A DNA stretch of 64,000 bases. Origin: Pseudomonas fluorescens. Lineage in GTDB: Bacteria > Pseudomonadota > Gammaproteobacteria > Pseudomonadales > Pseudomonadaceae. Shown here in pieces: positions 20,918 through 31,316 of this stretch. The translations under genes and the position numbers were made by a program. Positions within the stretch are counted from its first letter, which is position 1. Each line of letters starts with the position of its first letter. The stretch covers positions 5,440,326 through 5,504,325 of the forward strand of contig NZ_OZ024668.1 of the NCBI RefSeq assembly GCF_902497775.2, given 5' to 3'. The notes below the pieces were generated by a model. That model did no database searches. It was not told where the DNA came from and saw nothing but the letters and a program-made list of their open reading frames with translations.

Positions 20918-21288
20918 GCCGGGGGTGCCTCTGACCCATGACGCTTCGTTGGTTGGCGCTATGACAGACGCCTCGAAAAACGATTCAGCACAACTATTCT
21001 ACGCTGCTTTCGCTTTGCCAGGCGGCGAAGGGAAACTCTGCGAAACCGACTAAGCATATCTAGCGGCGTTTTCGCACAACATCCTTCAGAAGACGCAACC
21101 CCTTCCTACAAGCGGCCAGTATATAGAGACGAAAGCGCAGCGACGACCATGCAGTCATGAATACTTGTATTGAATTTGTACTGCTATGTGCTTTTTCTGC
21201 CAATTTGCTATCGTTCCAGGCTTCCCAGGCCCAAACCCGCGCGCCAGGCGGCCTGCACCCCAATAAGAAATGCCAACAAGAGAGACCT
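20918..21288. other. intergenic region without a recognisable gene
   Basis: 371 bp between the divergent thioesterase and MFS genes. The right half (about 21040-21250) is more AT-rich than its surroundings and probably carries the MFS promoter. No small gene, RNA or clear operator was recognised. An open frame from 21157 joins the MFS gene in frame but lacks a ribosome-binding site and does not resemble the family's N terminus. Confidence 0.5.
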
Positions 21289-22578
21289 ATGACCTCCGTG
21301 CCCGGCACCATCGCGCAGCCTTCGAGGCCGCTGACCCGCAGTGACTACAAGACTTTGTCGCTTTCCGCCCTGGGCGGTGCGCTGGAGTTCTACGATTTCA
21401 TCATCTTCGTGTTCTTCGCCACGGTGGTCGGCAAGCTGTTCTTTCCCGCCGAAATGCCTGAATGGCTGCGTTTGATGCAAACGTTTGGTATCTTCGCCGC
21501 CGGCTACCTGGCGCGGCCGCTGGGCGGCATCGTCATGGCCCACTTTGGCGACCTGCTGGGGCGCAAGAAGATGTTCACCCTGAGCATTTTCATGATGGCC
21601 GTGCCGACCCTGATCATGGGCCTGTTGCCAACCTACGCGCAGATCGGCCTGTGGGCACCGATCCTGCTGCTGGTGATGCGTGTGATCCAGGGCGCGGCAA
21701 TTGGCGGTGAAGTGCCGGGCGCCTGGGTGTTCGTCTCCGAGCACGTGCCGGCCCGCAACACCGGCTACGCCTGCGGTACGCTGACGGCGGGCCTGACGGC
21801 CGGGATCCTGCTTGGCTCGTTGGTGGCAACGCTGATCAACACGGTTTACAGCCCGCAGGAAGTCGCCGATTACGCCTGGCGTATCCCGTTCCTGCTTGGC
21901 GGGGTGTTCGGTTTGTTCGCCGTGTACCTGCGTCGCTGGCTGCATGAAACCCCGGTGTTTGCCGAGATGCAGGCGCGCAAGGCGCTGGCCGAAGAGGTGC
22001 CGCTGCGTGCGGTGCTGCGTGACCACCGCGGTGCCATCGCGCTGTCTATGCTGCTGACCTGGCTGCTGTCGGCTGGCATCGTCGTGGTGATCCTGATGAC
22101 CCCGGCGCTGCTGCAGAGCTTTTATCAGGTCAGCCCGACCGATTCGCTGAAGGCCAACAGCCTGGCCATTGTCCTGCTCAGCCTGGGCTGCATCGGTACC
22201 GGGGCTTTGGCCGACCGCTTTGGCGCCGGGCGGGTGTTCATTGTTGGCAGCCTGGCGTTGCTGGTGACTTCCTGGACTTTCTATCACACCTTGCCCAGCC
22301 ATCCCGAGTGGCTGTTCCCGCTGTATGCCCTGACCGGCCTGTGTGTCGGCATCGTCGGCGCTGTGCCCTACGTCATGGTCAAGGCCTTCCCGCCAGTCGT
22401 ACGTTTCAGCGGCCTGTCGTTTTCCTACAACCTGGCTTACGCGATCTTCGGTGGCCTGACGCCAATGGTGGTCACCGCGCTGCTTAAGGTCAGCCCGATG
22501 GCGCCGGCCTATTACGTTGCTGGTATCTGCGCCATTGGTCTGTTGGTGGGAATCTACCTTTGGCTCAAAGGTCGCTGA
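21289..22578 (+). CDS. MFS transporter, metabolite:H+ symporter (MHS) type
   Basis: 429 residues from MTSVPGTIAQPSRPLTRSDY, with AAGAGAG upstream. The frame could begin 44 codons earlier, but that extension is hydrophilic and atypical. Twelve membrane helices are predicted. Signatures of the citrate/proline/shikimate group are present: ALGGALEFYDFIIFVFFATVVGKLFFP at the first helix, ARPLGGIVMAHFGDLLGRKKMF after helix two, and IQGAAIGGEVPGAWVFVSEH in helix four. The substrate is likely an organic acid or amino acid but cannot be read. It stands alone; a perfect hairpin follows it. Confidence 0.88.
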   Translation: MTSVPGTIAQPSRPLTRSDYKTLSLSALGGALEFYDFIIFVFFATVVGKLFFPAEMPEWLRLMQTFGIFAAGYLARPLGGIVMAHFGDLLGRKKMFTLSIFMMAVPTLIMGLLPTYAQIGLWAPILLLVMRVIQGAAIGGEVPGAWVFVSEHVPARNTGYACGTLTAGLTAGILLGSLVATLINTVYSPQEVADYAWRIPFLLGGVFGLFAVYLRRWLHETPVFAEMQARKALAEEVPLRAVLRDHRGAIALSMLLTWLLSAGIVVVILMTPALLQSFYQVSPTDSLKANSLAIVLLSLGCIGTGALADRFGAGRVFIVGSLALLVTSWTFYHTLPSHPEWLFPLYALTGLCVGIVGAVPYVMVKAFPPVVRFSGLSFSYNLAYAIFGGLTPMVVTALLKVSPMAPAYYVAGICAIGLLVGIYLWLKGR

Positions 22579-22590
22579 CAGCTCGCATCA

Positions 22591-22617
22591 GTCGTTGCAG
22601 GGCAACCCTGCAACGAC
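22591..22617 (+). terminator. perfect hairpin after the MFS gene
   Basis: The arms GTCGTTGCAGG and CCTGCAACGAC pair over 11 bp around GCAAC, 12 bp past the stop codon. No T tract follows, so it may be a Rho-dependent or stabilising structure rather than a classic terminator. Confidence 0.5.
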
Positions 22618-22734
22618 CTCCTATGACTCGTCTTGATACAGATTGACCGGTGCACCGTGCCCCGTCGATAAAGATGTACCACTTTCGCCAAGCCCCAATC
22701 GCCACCCTGCGCCATACAGACAAGGAGACTCTGT

Positions 22735-23754
22735 ATGGACACCAGAAACTTTCAGGACAGAAGCACAGGTGAAGTCGTCATCACACCGGGTTCCTCCGGA
22801 TCCAGCAGTGGCGGTGGCGGCTTTTTCAGTATCGGTGGCGGTGGTGGCTTTGGTGGCGGCTTCGGTGGGTCAAGCAGCAAGCGCCGCAAGAAACGGGCAA
22901 AAGCACGTGCCGCAGCGCTGGCCAGGGCCCAGGCTGAAGCGCAGGCCATCGCCCAGGCGCACGCCTATCGCCAGTTGGTCGAGGGCTACAGCCAGGTCCG
23001 CGATGCAAGGAAGTTGGCGCTGGAACAACTGTTCGTTGCTCAGGTTTCGCGCCTGGAGCAGGTCCTTCAAGCTGAGATCGACGCGGCCAGAAGGCCTCCA
23101 CAAAGTAGTGGAAGCGAGCGTTGGGATTTGTATCTCATCAGCAAGCAACCGGATGAGATCAATGGTCTGATCGCTGCAAAGACCGTTGAACTGTCCGGTA
23201 AACAAGGTCAAGCCCTGGCCTTTGACGGCCAGGATCCTTTACAGCGCACGACCCAAGACTACGTCTCACACCTGGCTGCCCTGGGTTCTGCCCAAGCGGC
23301 TGCCCAAGCTCATCAAGCATGGGAAGCTTCCTATGCCGCGGGCCAGGAAGCAAAGCTGCTTTCTGAGGCCATCAGGCAACTGGGTGAAAAGTCGAATGCC
23401 CTGACCCAGCGGTACGTACAACTGCAAGCCGTCTGGCGTGAGCGCGAGCAAGAGTGGGAGCGCCAGCGTCTTTACGCGTTGCAGCGCGAGGCGCGCATCC
23501 GCTTCAAACGGCACGCTGATGCCGACCTGCGTCATGAGCGTCTCAGGCAAGCCAACACCCTGAAAGCACCCATGTCGGCGACAGCTGCCGGTGGCATGTT
23601 GCTGACCCGTGGCGGTGCTCTGGTAGCCCAAACGGCAGCCGCGACGATCGAACTGGCGATCCTGGACACCATCAAGGAAATCGGTCGTATCCTGCTGATC
23701 CGCACCGGGCAGACGGTCAGCCTGACAGCGACTGCGTTGTTCTATCAACGGTGA
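22735..23754 (+). CDS. S-type pyocin/colicin-like bacteriocin, N-terminal part (frameshifted from the next gene)
   Basis: 339 residues with a strong ribosome-binding site (AAGGAG). Residues 1-50 are Gly/Ser-rich and flexible, as in colicin N termini, and contain GEVVITP, which resembles a TonB box. Residues 50-105 are an Ala/Lys/Arg/Gln helix, and 105-290 form a long charged coiled coil. The final part (AATIELAILDTIKEIGRILLI and TATALFY) matches the helix that precedes the pyocin-S translocation domain. The frame stops at TGA 23752-23754. Dropping one base at about 23746 gives FYNGELTPEQ and joins the 508-residue frame that follows. I read this as the first half of one bacteriocin of about 862 residues. 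Confidence 0.75.
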   Translation: MDTRNFQDRSTGEVVITPGSSGSSSGGGGFFSIGGGGGFGGGFGGSSSKRRKKRAKARAAALARAQAEAQAIAQAHAYRQLVEGYSQVRDARKLALEQLFVAQVSRLEQVLQAEIDAARRPPQSSGSERWDLYLISKQPDEINGLIAAKTVELSGKQGQALAFDGQDPLQRTTQDYVSHLAALGSAQAAAQAHQAWEASYAAGQEAKLLSEAIRQLGEKSNALTQRYVQLQAVWREREQEWERQRLYALQREARIRFKRHADADLRHERLRQANTLKAPMSATAAGGMLLTRGGALVAQTAAATIELAILDTIKEIGRILLIRTGQTVSLTATALFYQR

Positions 23755-23797
23755 GCTCACCCCGGAACAACGCAATCGCAGACTTCAGGGGCTTGGG

Positions 23798-25324
23798 GTG
23801 CGAGCTGAAGTTCTGGGCTTACGTCCGGGGCAAAACCTGCAGGCGCTTGCAGACGCTGGTGGTATGGCGATCATCGACCATCGGCTCAAGACCGAGCAGG
23901 TGGCGGGTGGCACAGCCATCCATGTAGCTGCCACGGGGGGCACGATTGCCGCTGAAGTGCCGGTGCGCAATGCCGTTCTGGACCCGCTGAGCAACACCTA
24001 CGTCCTCGACGGCGAGACGCCTGGCGATAAAAGCCTGCGTTTTGTTGCAGACCCTGATCCAGCCGCCCATGGCGCCACCGCACAAGGTACTGCTGGTGAT
24101 CTTCCCGGTCTGCTGGCGCTAGGTGCGCCAGCGGACAGCATTCCCCTGGGAGCCGACCTGCGCATAGACGACTGCATTGTCTGTATCCCCGGGCAGTCGC
24201 CGTTGTACTTCACTTTTGCTGTGCGCCCCGTTGGTAGCGGTGTGGTCAATGGCACAGGGCAAGCCGTTACCCATGACTGGTGGGAAGCGGTTGAAAAGGA
24301 TGCAGGGGCGCCGGTGCCCATGGCGGTAGGCGAGCGCTTTCGTGGTCGTGAATTTACTTCTTTCGCAAGCTTCGAGTGCGCCCTCTGGCGTGCTGTCACC
24401 GAAGAAGGCTTGTTGATTTCACAGCTCGATGAGATCAACAGGAAACGGTTGGCTAATGGTTATGCTCCCTATGCGCGCAAAAGCGACTGGCTGGGTGAGC
24501 GGCATGAGTTCGAAATCCGCTACGCCCGGGCTGCGGTGTACGGCACGGACTCCTACAACCTCGACCGTATAAGCATCCACAAGCCTACTGCTGCCCAGGG
24601 CTTGCGACCTGTTACCCAGCCGTTCGCACCTTGGCTGAGCCTTGAGCTCCAGGGATCGCTAGACCTTGTTACAACACAAGCACATTCAGTTTCGGGCAAT
24701 CGAACCTGGACGCCACTGGTGCCGCCCGGACGTGAAGCCCTCGGCCCGACGGCGTTGCCGCCTGGACCTTCGATACCAGCGGTGTTGCCTGGTACTCCCC
24801 TGGCACCCGCCCGGCCGCAAATCGAAATACTTCCGGGCGAGAACATTGAGGACATCAATGCCAATATTCCTGGTTTCGGTGCGGGAACGGAACTGCCGTC
24901 TCCGGGACTGGTTTTTGCTCTTGAGCCGGCGAAGCCGCTGGAAACGGGAGATTATATTGATATACGGCGGCGGAGTATCAATGATGATATGGATGCAGAT
25001 CATATCGTTTCTCGGAAGGCGTTGGAGCTTTTTATAGATAATAACTACCTTGAAATTGATGTGCGTCTGAAGAAAAGCTTTCTTGAACAAGCCCCCAGCA
25101 TCGTTATCCCTTCAAGTGTGCATAGGAGATTCAGTGAAACTTATGGCGGTAGAAACACAAAGGCTAAGCAAAAGAAAGATGCCGCCGATCTGCGGGCGGC
25201 AGTTGATAGTAATATGGATGCCTTGAAATCAGGACTTCTTGAATATGGCTTTACCGATCAAGAAGTCGAAAGGACCCGTCACCAGTTGCATGAATTGCAT
25301 CAAGCAAAAGGGTGGTACAAATGA
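23798..25324 (+). CDS. bacteriocin C-terminal part: pyocin-S domain plus putative HNH-like nuclease domain
   Basis: 508 residues from a GTG without a convincing ribosome-binding site. The same frame is open back to 23726 and reads NGELTPEQRNRRLQGLGVRAE, which continues the preceding gene. Residues 60-250 are the pyocin-S domain (VPVRNAVLDPLSNTYVLDG, IDDCIVCIPGQSPLYFTFAV, YGTDSYNLDRISI). A Pro-rich linker (300-370) leads to a C-terminal domain with DADHIVSRKALE (His about 402) and SSVHRRFSETYGGRN (His about 442), a pattern suggesting a metal-dependent HNH-like nuclease. The exact nuclease family is not recognised. Base composition becomes AT-rich from about 24,940, marking an exchangeable killing module. 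The stop overlaps the next start by ATGA. Confidence 0.78.
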   Translation: MRAEVLGLRPGQNLQALADAGGMAIIDHRLKTEQVAGGTAIHVAATGGTIAAEVPVRNAVLDPLSNTYVLDGETPGDKSLRFVADPDPAAHGATAQGTAGDLPGLLALGAPADSIPLGADLRIDDCIVCIPGQSPLYFTFAVRPVGSGVVNGTGQAVTHDWWEAVEKDAGAPVPMAVGERFRGREFTSFASFECALWRAVTEEGLLISQLDEINRKRLANGYAPYARKSDWLGERHEFEIRYARAAVYGTDSYNLDRISIHKPTAAQGLRPVTQPFAPWLSLELQGSLDLVTTQAHSVSGNRTWTPLVPPGREALGPTALPPGPSIPAVLPGTPLAPARPQIEILPGENIEDINANIPGFGAGTELPSPGLVFALEPAKPLETGDYIDIRRRSINDDMDADHIVSRKALELFIDNNYLEIDVRLKKSFLEQAPSIVIPSSVHRRFSETYGGRNTKAKQKKDAADLRAAVDSNMDALKSGLLEYGFTDQEVERTRHQLHELHQAKGWYK

Positions 25325-25797
25325 ACTTAAGTAACATTGATACTTGGCTGAGCAGTGTTGGGCAGACCTACCAAGATTTGGTGAGGAAAAAAATTATCTC
25401 GGATACTCCTTTTATAGAGCTGTATCCTGGCACAGATTATTTGCACATCGAACCTGAGCGAGGTGTCGACTTTGGTTTTTTTGCTGAAACAAAAAAACTC
25501 GAAGCGATTTGTATCACACTGCAGAAAATAGCGCCTTCACAAATTGACTATGCAGGAGAACTGTCAGCGCCCTACGGTTCGCTTAAAACGCGGGATGCCG
25601 TGCATGAATTTTTTGGTGTTCCTTTCGAGCAAAAAGGACCAATGACGCTCCCCCTGCCAGTAGGTAAGACAGGGGGGTGGGACTTGTATCATCTTAGCTC
25701 TAAAGGGCACGAAAATATTAGAGTGATATTCAAGTACAACGTGAACTTGGAAGTTTGTAGCTTGGTGTTTTCTTTGCTTGACAAAGGTCGAGATTGA
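25321..25797 (+). CDS. probable bacteriocin immunity protein (DUF6392-like)
   Basis: 158 residues from ATG 25321, overlapping the bacteriocin stop by four bases; a GTG nine bases upstream is less likely. It begins NIDTWLSSVGQTYQDLVRKKII and contains PYGSLKTRDAVHEFFGVPFE and GGWDLYHL. These segments recall the DUF6392 proteins found next to S-type pyocin genes. It is acidic overall and has no signal peptide or membrane helix, as expected for a cytoplasmic antitoxin of a nuclease. It is clearly AT-rich compared with the genome, like the nuclease module before it. Immunity to that module is inferred from position and translational coupling, not shown. Confidence 0.65.
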   Translation: MNLSNIDTWLSSVGQTYQDLVRKKIISDTPFIELYPGTDYLHIEPERGVDFGFFAETKKLEAICITLQKIAPSQIDYAGELSAPYGSLKTRDAVHEFFGVPFEQKGPMTLPLPVGKTGGWDLYHLSSKGHENIRVIFKYNVNLEVCSLVFSLLDKGRD

Positions 25798-25872
25798 TCC
25801 TTGCTCGATGAGTGTTTGGGTTTATATTCTTTAGTTATCACATAGCAGTGGCTTAATCTTGAGGTATTCGAG

Positions 25873-27768
25873 ATGGATCTCAAATCTTCTTTACAAGACT
25901 ACACCGAGTCAGAGTTTCTGAACCTGGTGAAAAAAATCTGGGCTGTCGATGTTTCCAAAGAGGATCACGACAGACTCATTGAGCATTTCGACACCATTGT
26001 CGACCACACCGGTGGGGCGGATTTGATTCTGTACACCGAGGATGTAATCACCGGCAACGTCACGCTCCCGCAATCGTTCATTGGCTTTCTCAGGCGCTTG
26101 CACCGACAGCAAGGTACTGCGGCGTTCAAGGGCGACCCGCTACCTGGTGCACAACCCACGCCGCCACCGAAGCCATCGTTTTGGAGTTTGAATGCAACAG
26201 AGCGGGCCCTGGCGAATTCATCGAGACAGCAGGAAGAGGTTCGCAAGCTCGACGCAGGCATCAGCAAAACCGCCCCGGCAGCCGTGCGTGCACTGGATCA
26301 GCTCGACCGTTTGCTGACGCAATTGCAGGCACTTCAGGTTGCGCCGGCTGAAGAGCCGGTGGAGCAGCGGCTTTCCACCTGCGTGAATGACATCGCTGGG
26401 CTGGAACAGGCGCAAGAAGAAGCCGACAGCGCTGTGGTCGGTCTGCAGTACTACCGGTCGAGTGTGCGCTTTGCCAAAGAGAGAGCGGTACGCGATGTGA
26501 GTAACGGGTTCTATGACCGTGCAATGCAAGAAATCGTGCTGGCGCAGATGACCCGCATCAGCGATGACTATGGTGTTCAGTTGTCACAGGCAAGTGAACG
26601 CCACACTATTTTGCACGCGCGTGCTATGTCGTTGCTCGACAGGCTGGAGGAGCAACATGTACGCCTTGTAGCTGCCACTGGCACTGGCCCAGGCAATGTA
26701 GCCCGTGCCTTCAACGCGCCTGTGCATGGGGCGCAACTGCGACCTTGTTTGCTGGCTGGCGAAGGTGGGACTGTAGCGAGCGAAGAGCAAATGATCAGCC
26801 TGCAAAGCGCTGTTCGCTCTGCAGTGGGAGAGTTCACCTGGCAGGTGACTTCGACACAGGAAGTGCATCCAGGCACCTACGCCGATGTGCTGCAGTTTGT
26901 TTTCAACCGTATTGCGGTGGACCACCGCTTTGCTCTGACCCTTCCGCTTGTCGAGCTGTTACCCATCGAAGGCCAACCCTGGCACGAGCTCGCGCAAGCA
27001 CAGGCAAGCGTCGAATTGCCGATGCGGTTGTGCTCGGGTACCGCTGCGGCAACAGCGGATAAGCGCTTCAAGGGATTGCAGGAAGTAACCGAGTTCGCTC
27101 AGGTGCGGCTGACTTCGACGAACGGTGGCAAGTTGCCAACCGAGGTGAGAGTCAGGGCTGCTGAATGGGACGAACAAGCCAAAGTCTTTCGCTTCACCAG
27201 TGAGGGAGTGGCGCCTATCACGCTGTTCTGGTCGCCACGTCCTCGCGTCGAGAACCCTGGGCGGGGCGTAACCTTGCCTGTCGGGTTGTTCCATGTGCCG
27301 CGCGTGCCGCCGCTGGAGCCCTTTGGCCAACTGGCGGATGTCCGTTTCGATGACTATGTGGTGGTGTTCCCTGAAGGGACCGGACTGGACCCGCTCTACC
27401 TCATGCTAAAGGATCGTCGTGAGTTTGCGGGGGTGGTGAGCGGCGAGGGGCGGGCGGTATCGGCTGCGTGGCTTGAACAGACCCTGCAGGCGGGAGGAGC
27501 ACCAGTTCCCGAGCAGATCGCCAGGCAGTTACATGGGCAGGTGTTCAAGAGATTCGGTTTACTCGCGTCAGCGGTCTGGAAATCGGTGGCAGCCGATCCG
27601 CAATTGGCTCGCCTATTCGATGCGACAAATATCGAGCGAATGGAGAGTGGCTTGGGGCCTGTTGTTTCTGCGATCACCGGTGAAGCAGGGCTGGTGCTGC
27701 GGCACAGGAAGGCTCTTGCAGAAGGGGGCGAAGGCTACAATCTGGATAACATCTGCATAGGTGTTTAA
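25873..27768 (+). CDS. immunity domain (colicin E/pyocin type) fused to a pyocin-S domain, no killing domain
   Basis: 631 residues, ribosome-binding site GAGG. Residues 1-88 match E-type colicin/pyocin immunity proteins: MDLKSSLQDYTESEFLNLVK, HFDTIVDHTGGADLILYTED and TGNVTLPQSFIGFLRRLHR. The toxin-binding Tyr-Tyr-Pro of Im proteins reads LYT here. Residues 105-330 form a long helical region. Residues 330-631 are a pyocin-S domain (ADVRFDDYVVVFPEGTGLDPLYLMLKD, TNIERMESGLGPVVSAITGE) that ends at EGYNLDNICIGV, just where a nuclease domain would normally begin. It is either a functional chimera or the product of a deletion between two bacteriocin modules. It lies 75 bp after the immunity-like gene. 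Confidence 0.8.
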   Translation: MDLKSSLQDYTESEFLNLVKKIWAVDVSKEDHDRLIEHFDTIVDHTGGADLILYTEDVITGNVTLPQSFIGFLRRLHRQQGTAAFKGDPLPGAQPTPPPKPSFWSLNATERALANSSRQQEEVRKLDAGISKTAPAAVRALDQLDRLLTQLQALQVAPAEEPVEQRLSTCVNDIAGLEQAQEEADSAVVGLQYYRSSVRFAKERAVRDVSNGFYDRAMQEIVLAQMTRISDDYGVQLSQASERHTILHARAMSLLDRLEEQHVRLVAATGTGPGNVARAFNAPVHGAQLRPCLLAGEGGTVASEEQMISLQSAVRSAVGEFTWQVTSTQEVHPGTYADVLQFVFNRIAVDHRFALTLPLVELLPIEGQPWHELAQAQASVELPMRLCSGTAAATADKRFKGLQEVTEFAQVRLTSTNGGKLPTEVRVRAAEWDEQAKVFRFTSEGVAPITLFWSPRPRVENPGRGVTLPVGLFHVPRVPPLEPFGQLADVRFDDYVVVFPEGTGLDPLYLMLKDRREFAGVVSGEGRAVSAAWLEQTLQAGGAPVPEQIARQLHGQVFKRFGLLASAVWKSVAADPQLARLFDATNIERMESGLGPVVSAITGEAGLVLRHRKALAEGGEGYNLDNICIGV

Positions 27769-27803
27769 TGACTTGGGGTGGGATGCTGGCCATTCATCTA
27801 ATT

Positions 27804-27830
27804 GTCACATTCGTTTCATAGAGTAGTCAT
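27804..27830 (+). promoter_or_regulatory. PhoB binding sites (Pho boxes) upstream of pstS
   Basis: Three PhoB-like half-sites occur on one face at exact 11-bp spacing: GTCAC (27804), TTCAT (27815) and GTCAT (27826). The 18-mer at 27802-27819 matches the Pho box consensus CTGTCATAAATCTGTCAT at 11 positions. The sites end 59 bp before the pstS ATG, which suits PhoB activation. Confidence 0.75.
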
Positions 27831-27889
27831 ACGGCCTGCAGATACTTGGGCCCGATCCATCTCACCCCAATTCCTGCTAGGAGCAAGGC

Positions 27890-28888
27890 ATGAAACTGAA
27901 GCGTTTGATGGCGGCCCTGACTTTCGTCGCCGCTGGCGTTGCCACCGCCAATGCGGTTGCCGCTGTTGACCCTGCTATTCCGACCTACACCAAGACCACC
28001 GGTGTGTCGGGCAACCTCTCCAGCGTCGGTTCCGATACCCTGGCGAACCTGATGACCTTGTGGGCTGAGGCTTACAAAAAGGAATATCCGAACGTCAATA
28101 TCCAGATTCAGGCTGCCGGCTCCTCCACCGCGCCACCCGCGCTGACCGAAGGTACCGCCAACCTCGGCCCGATGAGCCGCAAGATGAAGGACGTCGAGCT
28201 GCAGGCCTTCGAGCAGAAGTACGGCTACAAGCCAACCGCCATCCCGGTTGCCGTCGACGCCCTGGCCGTATTCGTACACAAGGACAACCCGATCAAAGGC
28301 CTGACCATGGCTCAGGTCGATGCGATCTTCTCCTCGACCCGTCTGTGCGGCGCCAAGGCCGACGTGAAAACCTGGGGCGACCTGGGCGTGACCGGCGACC
28401 TGGCTAACAAGCCAGTGCAGCTGTTCGGCCGTAACTCGGTGTCTGGCACCTACGGCTACTTCAAGGAAGAGGCCCTGTGCAAAGGCGACTTCAAGCCTAA
28501 CGTCAACGAACAACCTGGCTCGGCTTCGGTCGTGCAGTCGATCAGCAGCTCGCTGAACGGCATCGGTTACTCGGGCATCGGCTACAAGACCGCCAGCGTC
28601 AAAACCGTGCCTCTGGCCAAGAAAGAAGGCGGTGCTTTCGTTGAAGACAACGAAGCCAACGCCCTGAACGGCACCTACCCGCTGTCGCGCTTCCTCTACG
28701 TCTACGTCAACAAGGCGCCGAACAAGCCTCTGGCTCCGCTGGAAGCTGAGTTCGTCAAGCTGGTGCTGTCGCAAGCCGGCCAGCAAGTGGTGGTGAAAGA
28801 CGGTTACATCCCGCTGCCAGCCAAAGTGGTTGATAAAGCCCTGGCTGACCTGGGTCTGAATCACAACGGCAACGTTGCGAAGAAGTAA
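27890..28888 (+). CDS. pstS: periplasmic phosphate-binding protein PstS
   Basis: 332 residues with a strong ribosome-binding site (AGGAG) and a signal peptide ([22 protein letters not shown], cleavage near AVAA). The phosphate site is visible: [35 protein letters not shown] and [16 protein letters not shown]. It binds periplasmic phosphate and delivers it to PstCA. Pho boxes upstream place it under PhoB. It belongs to the larger PstS group of pseudomonads, which lacks the classic E. coli lipobox or extra motifs. A terminator-like structure and a second Pho box separate it from pstC, so it may be transcribed alone at high level. Confidence 0.95.
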
Positions 28889-28941
28889 TTGAAGGACCGG
28901 CGGGGGCGGGTTTTGACCCGGTCTCGCCACTCATTGTGAGT

Positions 28942-28976
28942 CCGCTGCCAGGGATATCTGCGCGGCGGGCTTTTTT
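28942..28976 (+). terminator. probable terminator after pstS
   Basis: CCGC pairs with GCGG around an imperfect stem (CAG/CTG inside) and is followed by GGGC and six T residues at 28971-28976. The stem is weak, but the T tract and position between pstS and the pstC Pho box support partial termination. Confidence 0.5.
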
Positions 28977-28987
28977 GCGTCACTGCA

Positions 28988-29005
28988 TTGTCATGTTTTT
29001 GTCAT
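28988..29005 (+). promoter_or_regulatory. Pho box upstream of pstC
   Basis: TTGTCATGTTTTTGTCAT matches the Pho box consensus at 13 of 18 positions, with two TGTCAT repeats 11 bp apart. It ends 22 bp before the pstC start, so pstCAB-phoU probably has its own PhoB-dependent promoter. That is very close, and the transcript may have a very short leader or a start further downstream. Confidence 0.75.
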
Positions 29006-29027
29006 ACGGGACCGCTAGGGTGTGCGC

Positions 29028-31316
29028 ATGAATGATCTGGCCAACTCCACCATGACCCAAAATTCTCCCCCCGTGCGGATTGACTTCAATACGCCCGAGC
29101 TGCAACGCAAGCGGCGCATTCGTGCGCTCAAGGACCGCCTGACCCGCTGGTATGTACTGGTGGGCGGGCTCGCCGTGCTGGCAGCAATTACCCTGATCTT
29201 CTTCTACCTGGCCTACGTGGTTGTGCCGCTGTTTCAGGGCGCTACCCTGACCAGCAAGAAGGCCCTGGAGCCGACCTGGCTGCAACAGGACGCCGGCAAG
29301 CCGCTGATGATCGCCCTGGAAGAGCAGAACCTGGTCGGTATGCGCGTTTCCGACAAGGGCCAGGCGCTGTTCTTCGACACCAAGTCCGGTGCCGAGCTCA
29401 AGCGTGTCGAGTTGCCAGTACCTGCCGGTACCCAGGTGACTTCGATCGGTGCCGATCAGCCGGGTAACCCGCTGGTGGTGCTGGGCCTGTCCAATGGCCA
29501 GGCGCTGGTGTTCAGCCACAGCTACAAGATCACCTACCCGGACAACCAGAAAACCATCACCCCGGGCATCGACTTCCCTTACGGCCAGGAGCCGTTCGCC
29601 CTGGATGACCAGGGCCGGGCGCTGGAGCACGTCAGCCTCAACGTCAATGGCGAAACCCTGGTGGTGGCCGGTTCTACCGGTGCGCACCTGCAGGTGGTGT
29701 CGCTGAGCCGCGAAGAGAACATGATGACTGGCGAAGTCACCAGCGAGCAGAGCCGTATCGAGCTGCCGCAGATGACCGAGGCGGTGAAGGCGATCTTCAT
29801 CGACCCGCGCCAGCAATGGCTGTATGTAATCAACGGGCGTGCCCAGGCTGACGTCTTCAGCCTGCGCGAGAAGAGCCTCAACGGCCGCTACAAGCTGCTC
29901 GACGACGGCAATGCCGAAGTCACCGCCAGCACCCAACTGGTGGGCGGTATTTCGCTGATCATCGGTGATTCCAAAGGCGGCCTGGCCCAGTGGTTCATGG
30001 CCCGCGACCCGGATGGCGAGCAGCGCTTCAAGCGTATTCGCGAGTTCCAGATGGGCAAGGCGCCGATCGTGCAGATCGATGCCGAAGAGCGCCGCAAGGG
30101 CTTTATCGCCCTCGACGCCGACGGCAAGCTCGGCGTGTTCCACAGCACCGCGCACCGTACCCTGTTGGTCGAGCCGGCCGCTGGGGGCGCGGGCGTCCTG
30201 GCGCTGTCGCCACGGGCCAACCGCATCATCATCGAAGAAGGCGGCAAGCTGCTGCCGCTGACCTTGAAGAACCCGCACCCGGAAGTGTCCTGGAGCGCGC
30301 TGTGGAGCAAGGTCTGGTACGAGAACTACGACGAGCCCAAGTACGTTTGGCAGTCGACTGCTTCGAACACCGACTTCGAACCCAAGCTGAGCCTGTCGCC
30401 GCTGACCTTCGGTACCCTGAAGGCTGCGTTCTACGCGATGATCCTCGCTGCACCACTGGCCATTGCCGCCGCCATCTACACCGCCTACTTCATGGCCCCG
30501 GGCATGCGCCGCAAGGTCAAGCCGGTGATCGAGCTGATGGAGGCGATGCCGACGGTGATTCTCGGCTTCTTCGCCGGCCTGTTCCTGGCGCCGTTCCTTG
30601 AAGGTCACCTGCCGGGTGTGTTCAGCCTGTTCCTGTTGATGCCACTGGGCATCCTGGTTGCCGGCTTTGCCTGGAGCCGCCTGCCCGAGTCGCTGCGCCT
30701 GCGGGTTCCGGATGGCTGGGAAGCGGCGATCCTGATTCCGGTGATCCTCTTCACCGGCTGGTTCGCCCTGTACATGAGCCCGTTCGTCGAGACCTGGTTC
30801 TTCGATGGCGACATGCGCCTGTGGATCACCAATGACCTGGGGATTACCTACGACCAGCGCAACGCCCTGGTGGTCGGTATCGCCATGGGCTTCGCGGTGA
30901 TCCCGAACATCTACTCGATCGCCGAAGACGCCGTGTTCAGCGTGCCGCGCAGCCTGACCCTGGGTTCGCTGGCGCTCGGTGCCACGCCGTGGCAGACCCT
31001 GACCCGCGTGGTCATCCTGACCGCCAGCCCGGGGATCTTCTCGGCGCTGATGATCGGCATGGGCCGCGCCGTGGGTGAAACCATGATCGTGCTGATGGCT
31101 ACCGGCAACACCCCGGTCATGGAAATGAACCTGTTCGAAGGTATGCGCACCCTGGCGGCCAACGTTGCGGTGGAGATGCCCGAGTCGGAAGTCGGTGGCA
31201 GTCATTATCGCGTGCTGTTCCTCGCCGCGCTGGTGCTGCTGATGTTCACCTTCGTGATGAACACCTTGGCCGAGCTGATTCGCCAGCGTCTGCGCAAGAA
31301 ATACTCGTCGCTTTGA
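29028..31316 (+). CDS. pstC: phosphate ABC transporter permease PstC (long form)
   Basis: 762 residues from ATG 29028 (a GTG two codons earlier and an ATG eight codons later are possible). After a charged N terminus, one membrane helix at about 45-70 anchors a periplasmic domain of about 400 residues. The six-helix permease core occupies roughly the last 300, with TLKAAFYAMILAAPLAIAAAIYTAYF and the conserved inner-membrane loop SVPRSLTLGSLALGATPWQTL. E. coli PstC is only about 320 residues; the extra periplasmic domain is usual in Pseudomonas. It forms the phosphate channel with PstA. The gene is first of pstCAB-phoU. Confidence 0.93.
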   Translation: MNDLANSTMTQNSPPVRIDFNTPELQRKRRIRALKDRLTRWYVLVGGLAVLAAITLIFFYLAYVVVPLFQGATLTSKKALEPTWLQQDAGKPLMIALEEQNLVGMRVSDKGQALFFDTKSGAELKRVELPVPAGTQVTSIGADQPGNPLVVLGLSNGQALVFSHSYKITYPDNQKTITPGIDFPYGQEPFALDDQGRALEHVSLNVNGETLVVAGSTGAHLQVVSLSREENMMTGEVTSEQSRIELPQMTEAVKAIFIDPRQQWLYVINGRAQADVFSLREKSLNGRYKLLDDGNAEVTASTQLVGGISLIIGDSKGGLAQWFMARDPDGEQRFKRIREFQMGKAPIVQIDAEERRKGFIALDADGKLGVFHSTAHRTLLVEPAAGGAGVLALSPRANRIIIEEGGKLLPLTLKNPHPEVSWSALWSKVWYENYDEPKYVWQSTASNTDFEPKLSLSPLTFGTLKAAFYAMILAAPLAIAAAIYTAYFMAPGMRRKVKPVIELMEAMPTVILGFFAGLFLAPFLEGHLPGVFSLFLLMPLGILVAGFAWSRLPESLRLRVPDGWEAAILIPVILFTGWFALYMSPFVETWFFDGDMRLWITNDLGITYDQRNALVVGIAMGFAVIPNIYSIAEDAVFSVPRSLTLGSLALGATPWQTLTRVVILTASPGIFSALMIGMGRAVGETMIVLMATGNTPVMEMNLFEGMRTLAANVAVEMPESEVGGSHYRVLFLAALVLLMFTFVMNTLAELIRQRLRKKYSSL

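Follow-up and report, generated by a model that had tools for sequence, protein, structure and literature searches.

An immunity-domain fusion protein as a candidate second subunit of a nuclease-type bacteriocin in Pseudomonas

Results

Organization of the locus

The window, by which we mean the whole 64,000-nucleotide stretch of Pseudomonas fluorescens DNA that was analysed, carries on its forward strand a set of three genes named here A, B and C. Gene C (25873..27768) encodes a protein of 631 residues where an immunity (Im) domain is followed by a long helical bundle, a Pyocin_S or inner-membrane-translocation (IMT) domain and a truncated DNase fold (D3), as assigned from the open reading frame, profile searches and an AF2 model. 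The Im (Colicin_Pyocin) domain was found by profile search at residues 4-86 (25882..26130) and its alignment with Im9 shows that the equivalents of D51 and Y55 are kept. The helical bundle was observed in the AF2 model at residues 108-269 (26194..26679) and the IMT domain by profile search at residues 370-511 (26980..27405; PF06958, E 5e-20), while a motif scan located an intact DPY motif (D-X4-FP-X8-Y; DYVVVFPEGTGLDPLY) at residues 494-509 (27352..27399). D3 (27430..27765) has a colicin-type DNase fold which ends ahead of the terminal HxxxH motif and is without the equivalents of H102 and E100, and judged from these residues it is a truncated, dead nuclease.

The original prediction described this frame as an Im domain joined to a helical region and a Pyocin_S domain, and this open reading frame is real, with a Colicin_Pyocin match (PF01320) at the N-terminus and a Pyocin_S match further on. 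Its statement that a killing domain is absent was wrong, as the dead fold of D3 lies at the C-terminal end. The altered Tyr-Tyr-Pro surface (LYT) that it noticed is indeed found at the hot-spot of the window's C next to the kept D51 and Y55, with Leu at position 54 occurring in 2 of 47 Im domains of C (ImC) and Thr at position 56 in 1 of 47. C is not of the size of a stand-alone Im protein (~85-95 residues) and its length ranges from 332 to 645 residues across 48 distinct loci, in which a frame of at least 300 residues had been demanded. C begins with the Im domain, and A begins with a Gly-rich N-terminus.

Gene A is present in the window as two frame pieces. The first (22735..23754; 339 residues) contains the Gly-rich N-terminus and a helical region, and the second (23798..25324; 508 residues) contains, in the order found in A generally, a Pyocin_S domain, an internal DNase domain (D1) and a variable C-terminal toxin domain. 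The Pyocin_S domain has an altered DPY region (DCIVCIPGQSPLYFTF; 24170..24217), D1 (24239..24589) is without the HNH histidines and is the proposed docking site for the Im domain of C, and the toxin domain is placed at 24920..25321 with an inferred boundary. A has about 860 residues (846-899 in 43 of 48 distinct loci and shorter or split in the others) and is whole in most relatives; its split in the window may be genuine or a sequencing error. Since A is split and the hot-spot of the window's C is atypical, the local copy of A-B-C may be decaying.

Gene B (25321..25797) encodes a DUF6392 protein of 158 residues (PF19929, E 9e-12), overlaps the end of A through ATGA and is the probable immunity protein of the variable toxin domain of A. 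Where the toxin of A is a DNase with intact HNH (D2), B is a free Im gene; otherwise it is mostly an open reading frame of ~155-175 residues, known by length, the DUF6392 assignment having been made on the B of the window. The last 150 residues of A (24872-25321 in the window) gave no Pfam family above the cut-off in 10 of 10 proteins scanned (the window, L098, L112, L113, L119, L127, L130, L107, L135 and L146) and together with B, a DUF6392 protein in the window, they possibly form undescribed toxin/immunity pairs.

In both collections of loci C is mostly the last gene of the A-B-C set. In four loci (L048, L052, L054 and L058) A/B and C are separated by apparent spare cassettes for toxins and immunity proteins, and C closes the locus at its 3' end, a layout that resembles polymorphic-toxin arrays. 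One subfamily (window 21157-31316; L032, L033, L036, L039, L047, L061 and L062) apparently occupies a single chromosomal site in several species, where the neighbours are what we take to be an MFS transporter gene and the pst phosphate genes. We also observed a 946-residue bacteriocin (L095:5261-8101) that combines two Pyocin_S domains with a dead DNase inside the chain and, at its end, a DNase that has the HNH histidines. Elsewhere in the genome of the window, another frame, of 658 residues, also matches the Pyocin_S part of the family (G000:C1:3690178-3690966).

Distribution and conservation of gene C

The Im and helical parts of C were found in 32 of 298 genomes of the genus, that of the window included, where a match had to start at or before residue 5 and to reach at least residue 379 and up to four candidates were scored per genome. 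Among 390 genomes of the order, no full-length C was found outside the genus, the matches within it being G000 and G083, and a plasmid search returned a pstS match only and no related bacteriocin locus. A protein search gave 46 relatives of C at E 1e-20 or better, several of which are named bacteriocin immunity protein by NCBI. From a scan of GTDB genomes 56 loci were fetched, and C was called in 39 of them, which belong to named Pseudomonas species apart from one record titled Pantoea sp.; the remaining 17 contain ordinary bacteriocins or a broken or partial C.

In all 25 of the closest C pairs listed, dN was lower than dS overall and did not exceed dS in any domain, and by this measure C is under purifying selection. 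The original prediction had considered that C could be the scar of a deletion, and had asked whether the fusion occurs in other Pseudomonas. Many intact copies with one conserved junction were found there, and since C also belongs to a recurring operon, occurs in many species and shows dN below dS, both a deletion scar and an assembly join of two genes are rejected. On a midpoint-rooted tree of C (60 rows), D3 is found in several deep branches and its presence needs six changes, at least five of which are forced by well-supported branches, while the Im-helical-IMT part is retained.

The presence of C follows that of A closely. A was found in 30 of the 298 genomes, whole in 27 and split or partial in three (G000, G245 and G155), and all 30 are among the 32 that contain C; the other two, G112 and G215, both have an eroded A. 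When both collections were pooled with redundancy kept, C was present in 71 loci and D1 in 67, and the two occurred together in 65. The six loci with C and no D1 come from four genomes in which A is split or eroded (G245, G112, G155 and G215), and the two with D1 and no called C are G146 and L126. L126 is a short contig where the Im part of C lies outside the called frame. G146 has a divergent A with two Pyocin_S domains and had been considered a single-chain replacement of A and C, an idea that was withdrawn when a divergent C-like open reading frame was found downstream.

The statistics that follow were computed on 48 distinct A-C pairs, broken loci being excluded. C is present with an in-frame intact D2 at the end of A in 22 of these and without it in 26, five of which have a free Im gene. 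Its retention in either case suggests that C is more than the cognate immunity protein of the toxin of A.

A conserved exosite on a dead nuclease

D1 has lost its catalytic residues in all 48 loci and on this basis is a dead DNase. Position 102 is not histidine in any of them, position 103 is still histidine in 10, and the HxxxH motif is missing from the extended D1 tail in all 48. In D2, H102 and H103 were both observed in 22 of 22 sequences and the terminal motif in 19 of 22. The surface through which such a nuclease is bound by its immunity protein shows the opposite trend. The mean column entropy of D1 is 1.02 at 19 exosite positions versus 1.54 elsewhere (n=48), whereas the active D2 of such loci has 1.67 at the exosite and 0.80 elsewhere (n=22), and the contrast was significant by permutation (p 5e-5) with none of 116 circular shifts as extreme. 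Residues N75, R78, P85, A87 and W92 are invariant in all 48 D1 sequences.

A similar reversal was observed in the Im domains. ImC has a mean entropy of 0.94 at 15 interface positions and 1.60 elsewhere (n=47), whereas free Im proteins have 1.29 at the interface and 0.95 elsewhere (n=31; contrast p 0.001, 1 of 82 circular shifts as extreme). The exosite and interface residue lists are taken in part from the E9-Im9 literature; coarser definitions based on whole segments gave the same direction (p 5e-5 and 3 of 116 shifts for D1/D2; p 2.5e-4 and 13 of 82 shifts for Im). The usual constant and variable pattern is turned round in D1, whose immunity-binding exosite varies less than its other positions. 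Within Im proteins, one study describes helix III (D51, Y54 and Y55) as a constant clamp and helix II as the variable part that gives specificity (PMC12927319).

These patterns make a decoy or immunity receptor, one of the roles first suggested for C, less likely, as the free Im-D2 interface is more variable than the rest of its domains and the ImC and D1 surfaces are less variable. D3 was considered as a partner of ImC in cis. R78 is present in 1 and W92 in none of the 15 D3 rows listed, 13 of which have a 3-residue gap at the W92 site, and because the exosite residues of D1 are absent from D3 and D3 was gained or lost repeatedly on the tree, such pairing is unlikely.

Correlated divergence of the two surfaces

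Distances at the ImC interface and the D1 exosite were found to be correlated across 47 loci when the rest of both domains was partialled out (0.40, p 0.0005). The ImC interface showed no correlation with the rest of D1 (0.00, p 0.51), and the rest of ImC correlated weakly with the D1 exosite (0.19, p 0.015). In the 22 loci that also contain D2 and a free Im gene, the partial correlation was 0.54 for ImC-D1 (p 0.008) and 0.26 for free Im-D2, a pair of established type (p 0.008), while the mismatched pairs gave 0.22 for ImC-D2 (p 0.07) and -0.08 for free Im-D1 (p 0.72). When the test was run in eight variants, the value for ImC-D1 was lowest at 0.25 (p 0.096) and highest at 0.60 (p 0.003), and neither mismatched pair exceeded 0.22 (p at least 0.07). 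Mutual information between single columns of ImC and D1 showed no enrichment (4 of the top 100 pairs versus 2.9 expected). Because A and C are linked, a common history by itself would produce correlated divergence, which the partial test corrects only in part, and the joint divergence of the ImC and D1 surfaces is support for their pairing and not proof of it.

The DPY motif and the IMT domain

The DPY motif marks the IMT domain of nuclease bacteriocins and is stated to be present in all the sequences that its authors examined (PMC5536347). In our set the strict motif was observed in 44 of 48 C proteins and in 4 of 48 A proteins. These four A proteins belong to divergent loci (L035, L107, L135 and L146), all of which have C; in most of the remaining A proteins the region reads DC-x-x-C-[VIL]-P and the spacer is shortened. 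Ordinary nuclease bacteriocins of the same genomes have the strict motif in 18 of 20 cases and YP for FP in the other two; these controls are the 20 places ranked next after the C matches and were not selected by pattern, yet were found by their likeness to C. An earlier control set (11 of 11 with the motif) was discarded because the peptide pattern used to fetch it overlapped the motif.

The retention of DPY in C and its loss from most A proteins looks, at the level of sequence, like a division of labour after duplication. A CxxC of the form DC[IV][IV]C was also noticed in the altered DPY region of 47 of 48 A proteins and was not seen in the motifs of ordinary bacteriocins; it might be a disulphide or a metal site.

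Discussion

We propose a nuclease-type bacteriocin of two chains in which C, as the second subunit, clamps onto D1 and supplies a delivery function in trans, and we give this reading a probability of roughly 60%. The reading follows from the co-occurrence of A and C, the catalytic loss in D1, the crossed conservation of the surfaces, their correlated divergence and the DPY motif that is mostly lost in A and kept in C, and it is favoured further by the six changes of D3 on a tree where the Im-helical-IMT part stays. Gene A would be an S-type bacteriocin in which the original DNase, D1, is no longer catalytic and precedes an exchangeable toxin domain that B would neutralise. The Im domain of C would dock on the preserved immunity-binding exosite of D1, and the old toxin/immunity pair would have become an assembly clamp that places the helical bundle and the intact IMT domain of C on A. 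C would then most likely provide the inner-membrane-translocation function no longer given by the altered IMT domain of A. Physical binding of C to D1 appears likely from the features above; delivery in trans is a more tentative hypothesis, for which we would put the chances somewhat below even. A structure model of A from a relative (L122) was poor (pLDDT 57.5) and was not used.

Several observations weigh against delivery by C. Four divergent A proteins keep the DPY motif despite having C, 4 of 48 C proteins are without the strict motif, and the altered motif of A may still work. If A threads through the outer membrane, it might leave a bound, folded C behind, as happens with ordinary Im proteins. 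Import of xenocin did not need the extra part of its fused immunity protein (PMC4745447).

The binding evidence, that is the conservation of exosite and interface together with their correlated divergence, would serve equally if C bound D1 but worked in the producer only, as a chaperone or stabiliser of A in folding, protection or release, and were shed at the target; ordinary Im proteins are released from the toxin as it is imported (PMC5264503, PMC5536347). A chaperone for the neighbouring toxin came nearest among the three roles suggested in the original prediction, as the data suggest that C binds the dead DNase within the neighbouring bacteriocin. A role confined to the producer leaves unexplained why an intact DPY motif is found in the IMT domain of 44 of 48 C proteins while it is absent from 44 of 48 A proteins, and we consider it unlikely. 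C could also be a broad immunity protein that catches any incoming A-type bacteriocin through D1, which is constant while the toxin domains vary, and both its Im domain and the name immunity protein in several records agree with such a role. However, an arms race would be expected to make the interface diverse, as is seen for free Im and D2, whereas the ImC and D1 surfaces are conserved; C lies beside A in 30 of 32 genomes and its large helical-IMT part would be left unexplained, all of which renders broad immunity improbable. Although the position of C at the 3' end of loci with apparent spare cassettes (e.g. L048, L052 and L054) and the split A of the window would suit a remnant of an Im gene-bacteriocin gene scar, kept as homologous DNA for the exchange of toxin cassettes, this very improbable reading has for the most part been refuted by a reading frame conserved over long times (dN below dS in 25 of 25 pairs listed), the invariant surface residues and the many species that carry C.

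The two-chain reading can be compared with known systems. Residues 1-88 of C resemble the DNase immunity proteins of E colicins and S-type pyocins (Im2, Im7, Im9 and ImS2; PF01320) in fold and sequence, including Asp51 and Tyr55 of the helix III hot-spot. C differs from them in that its Im domain is fused to a helical-IMT(-DNase) protein, its binding face is conserved and not diversified, and a separate gene B lies beside the toxin. C occurs both with and without an intact D2, and the correlation of its interface is weaker with D2 (0.22) than with D1 (0.54). Sharp et al. 2017 described, with reference to Ghequire and De Mot 2014, Pseudomonas nuclease bacteriocins with tandem pyocin_S domains and an additional DNase without functional HNH (PMC5536347). 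These fit gene A with its Pyocin_S domain, internal dead DNase and C-terminal toxin; the accessible text says nothing of gene C or of what the dead DNase might do. Atanaskovic et al. 2022 included Colicin_Pyocin among the domains that co-occur with IMT (PMC9040868); the proteins concerned are probably C, and the accessible entry gives the domain pair without function, operon or partner.

XimB of Xenorhabdus nematophila is another example of an N-terminal immunity domain on a larger protein adjoining a bacteriocin (PMC4745447). Its domain neutralises an active toxin, its 32-kDa part is hemolysin-like and not Pyocin_S, and the bacteriocin is active without that part, in all of which it differs from what is proposed for C. 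A similar Pyocin_S-DNase segment is found in the T6SS DNase effectors of the VPA1263 type (NF047924), for which C scores 89 against a cut-off of 900, and no PAAR, MIX, VgrG, Hcp or other T6SS Pfam domain was detected in C or in the four A proteins scanned. In agreement with the original prediction, which knew of no described function for this arrangement, neither a function for C nor a link between C and D1 was found in the titles, abstracts and text passages covered by the literature search.

If the two-chain reading is true, this bacteriocin would perhaps have split its delivery machinery onto a second chain, with the dead DNase as the socket and the Im domain as the plug, and an immunity domain would have become part of a weapon. 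Transport of pyocin G across the inner membrane requires the IMT domain (PMC9040868) and the role of this domain is stated to be an open question (PMC12927319). An IMT domain on a separate and removable subunit would allow its role to be tested by adding or omitting one protein, and the ancestral-type pair of free Im and D2, present alongside in 22 of 48 loci, would be a built-in control. A high-affinity toxin/immunity interface would in this family have been turned from defence to assembly.
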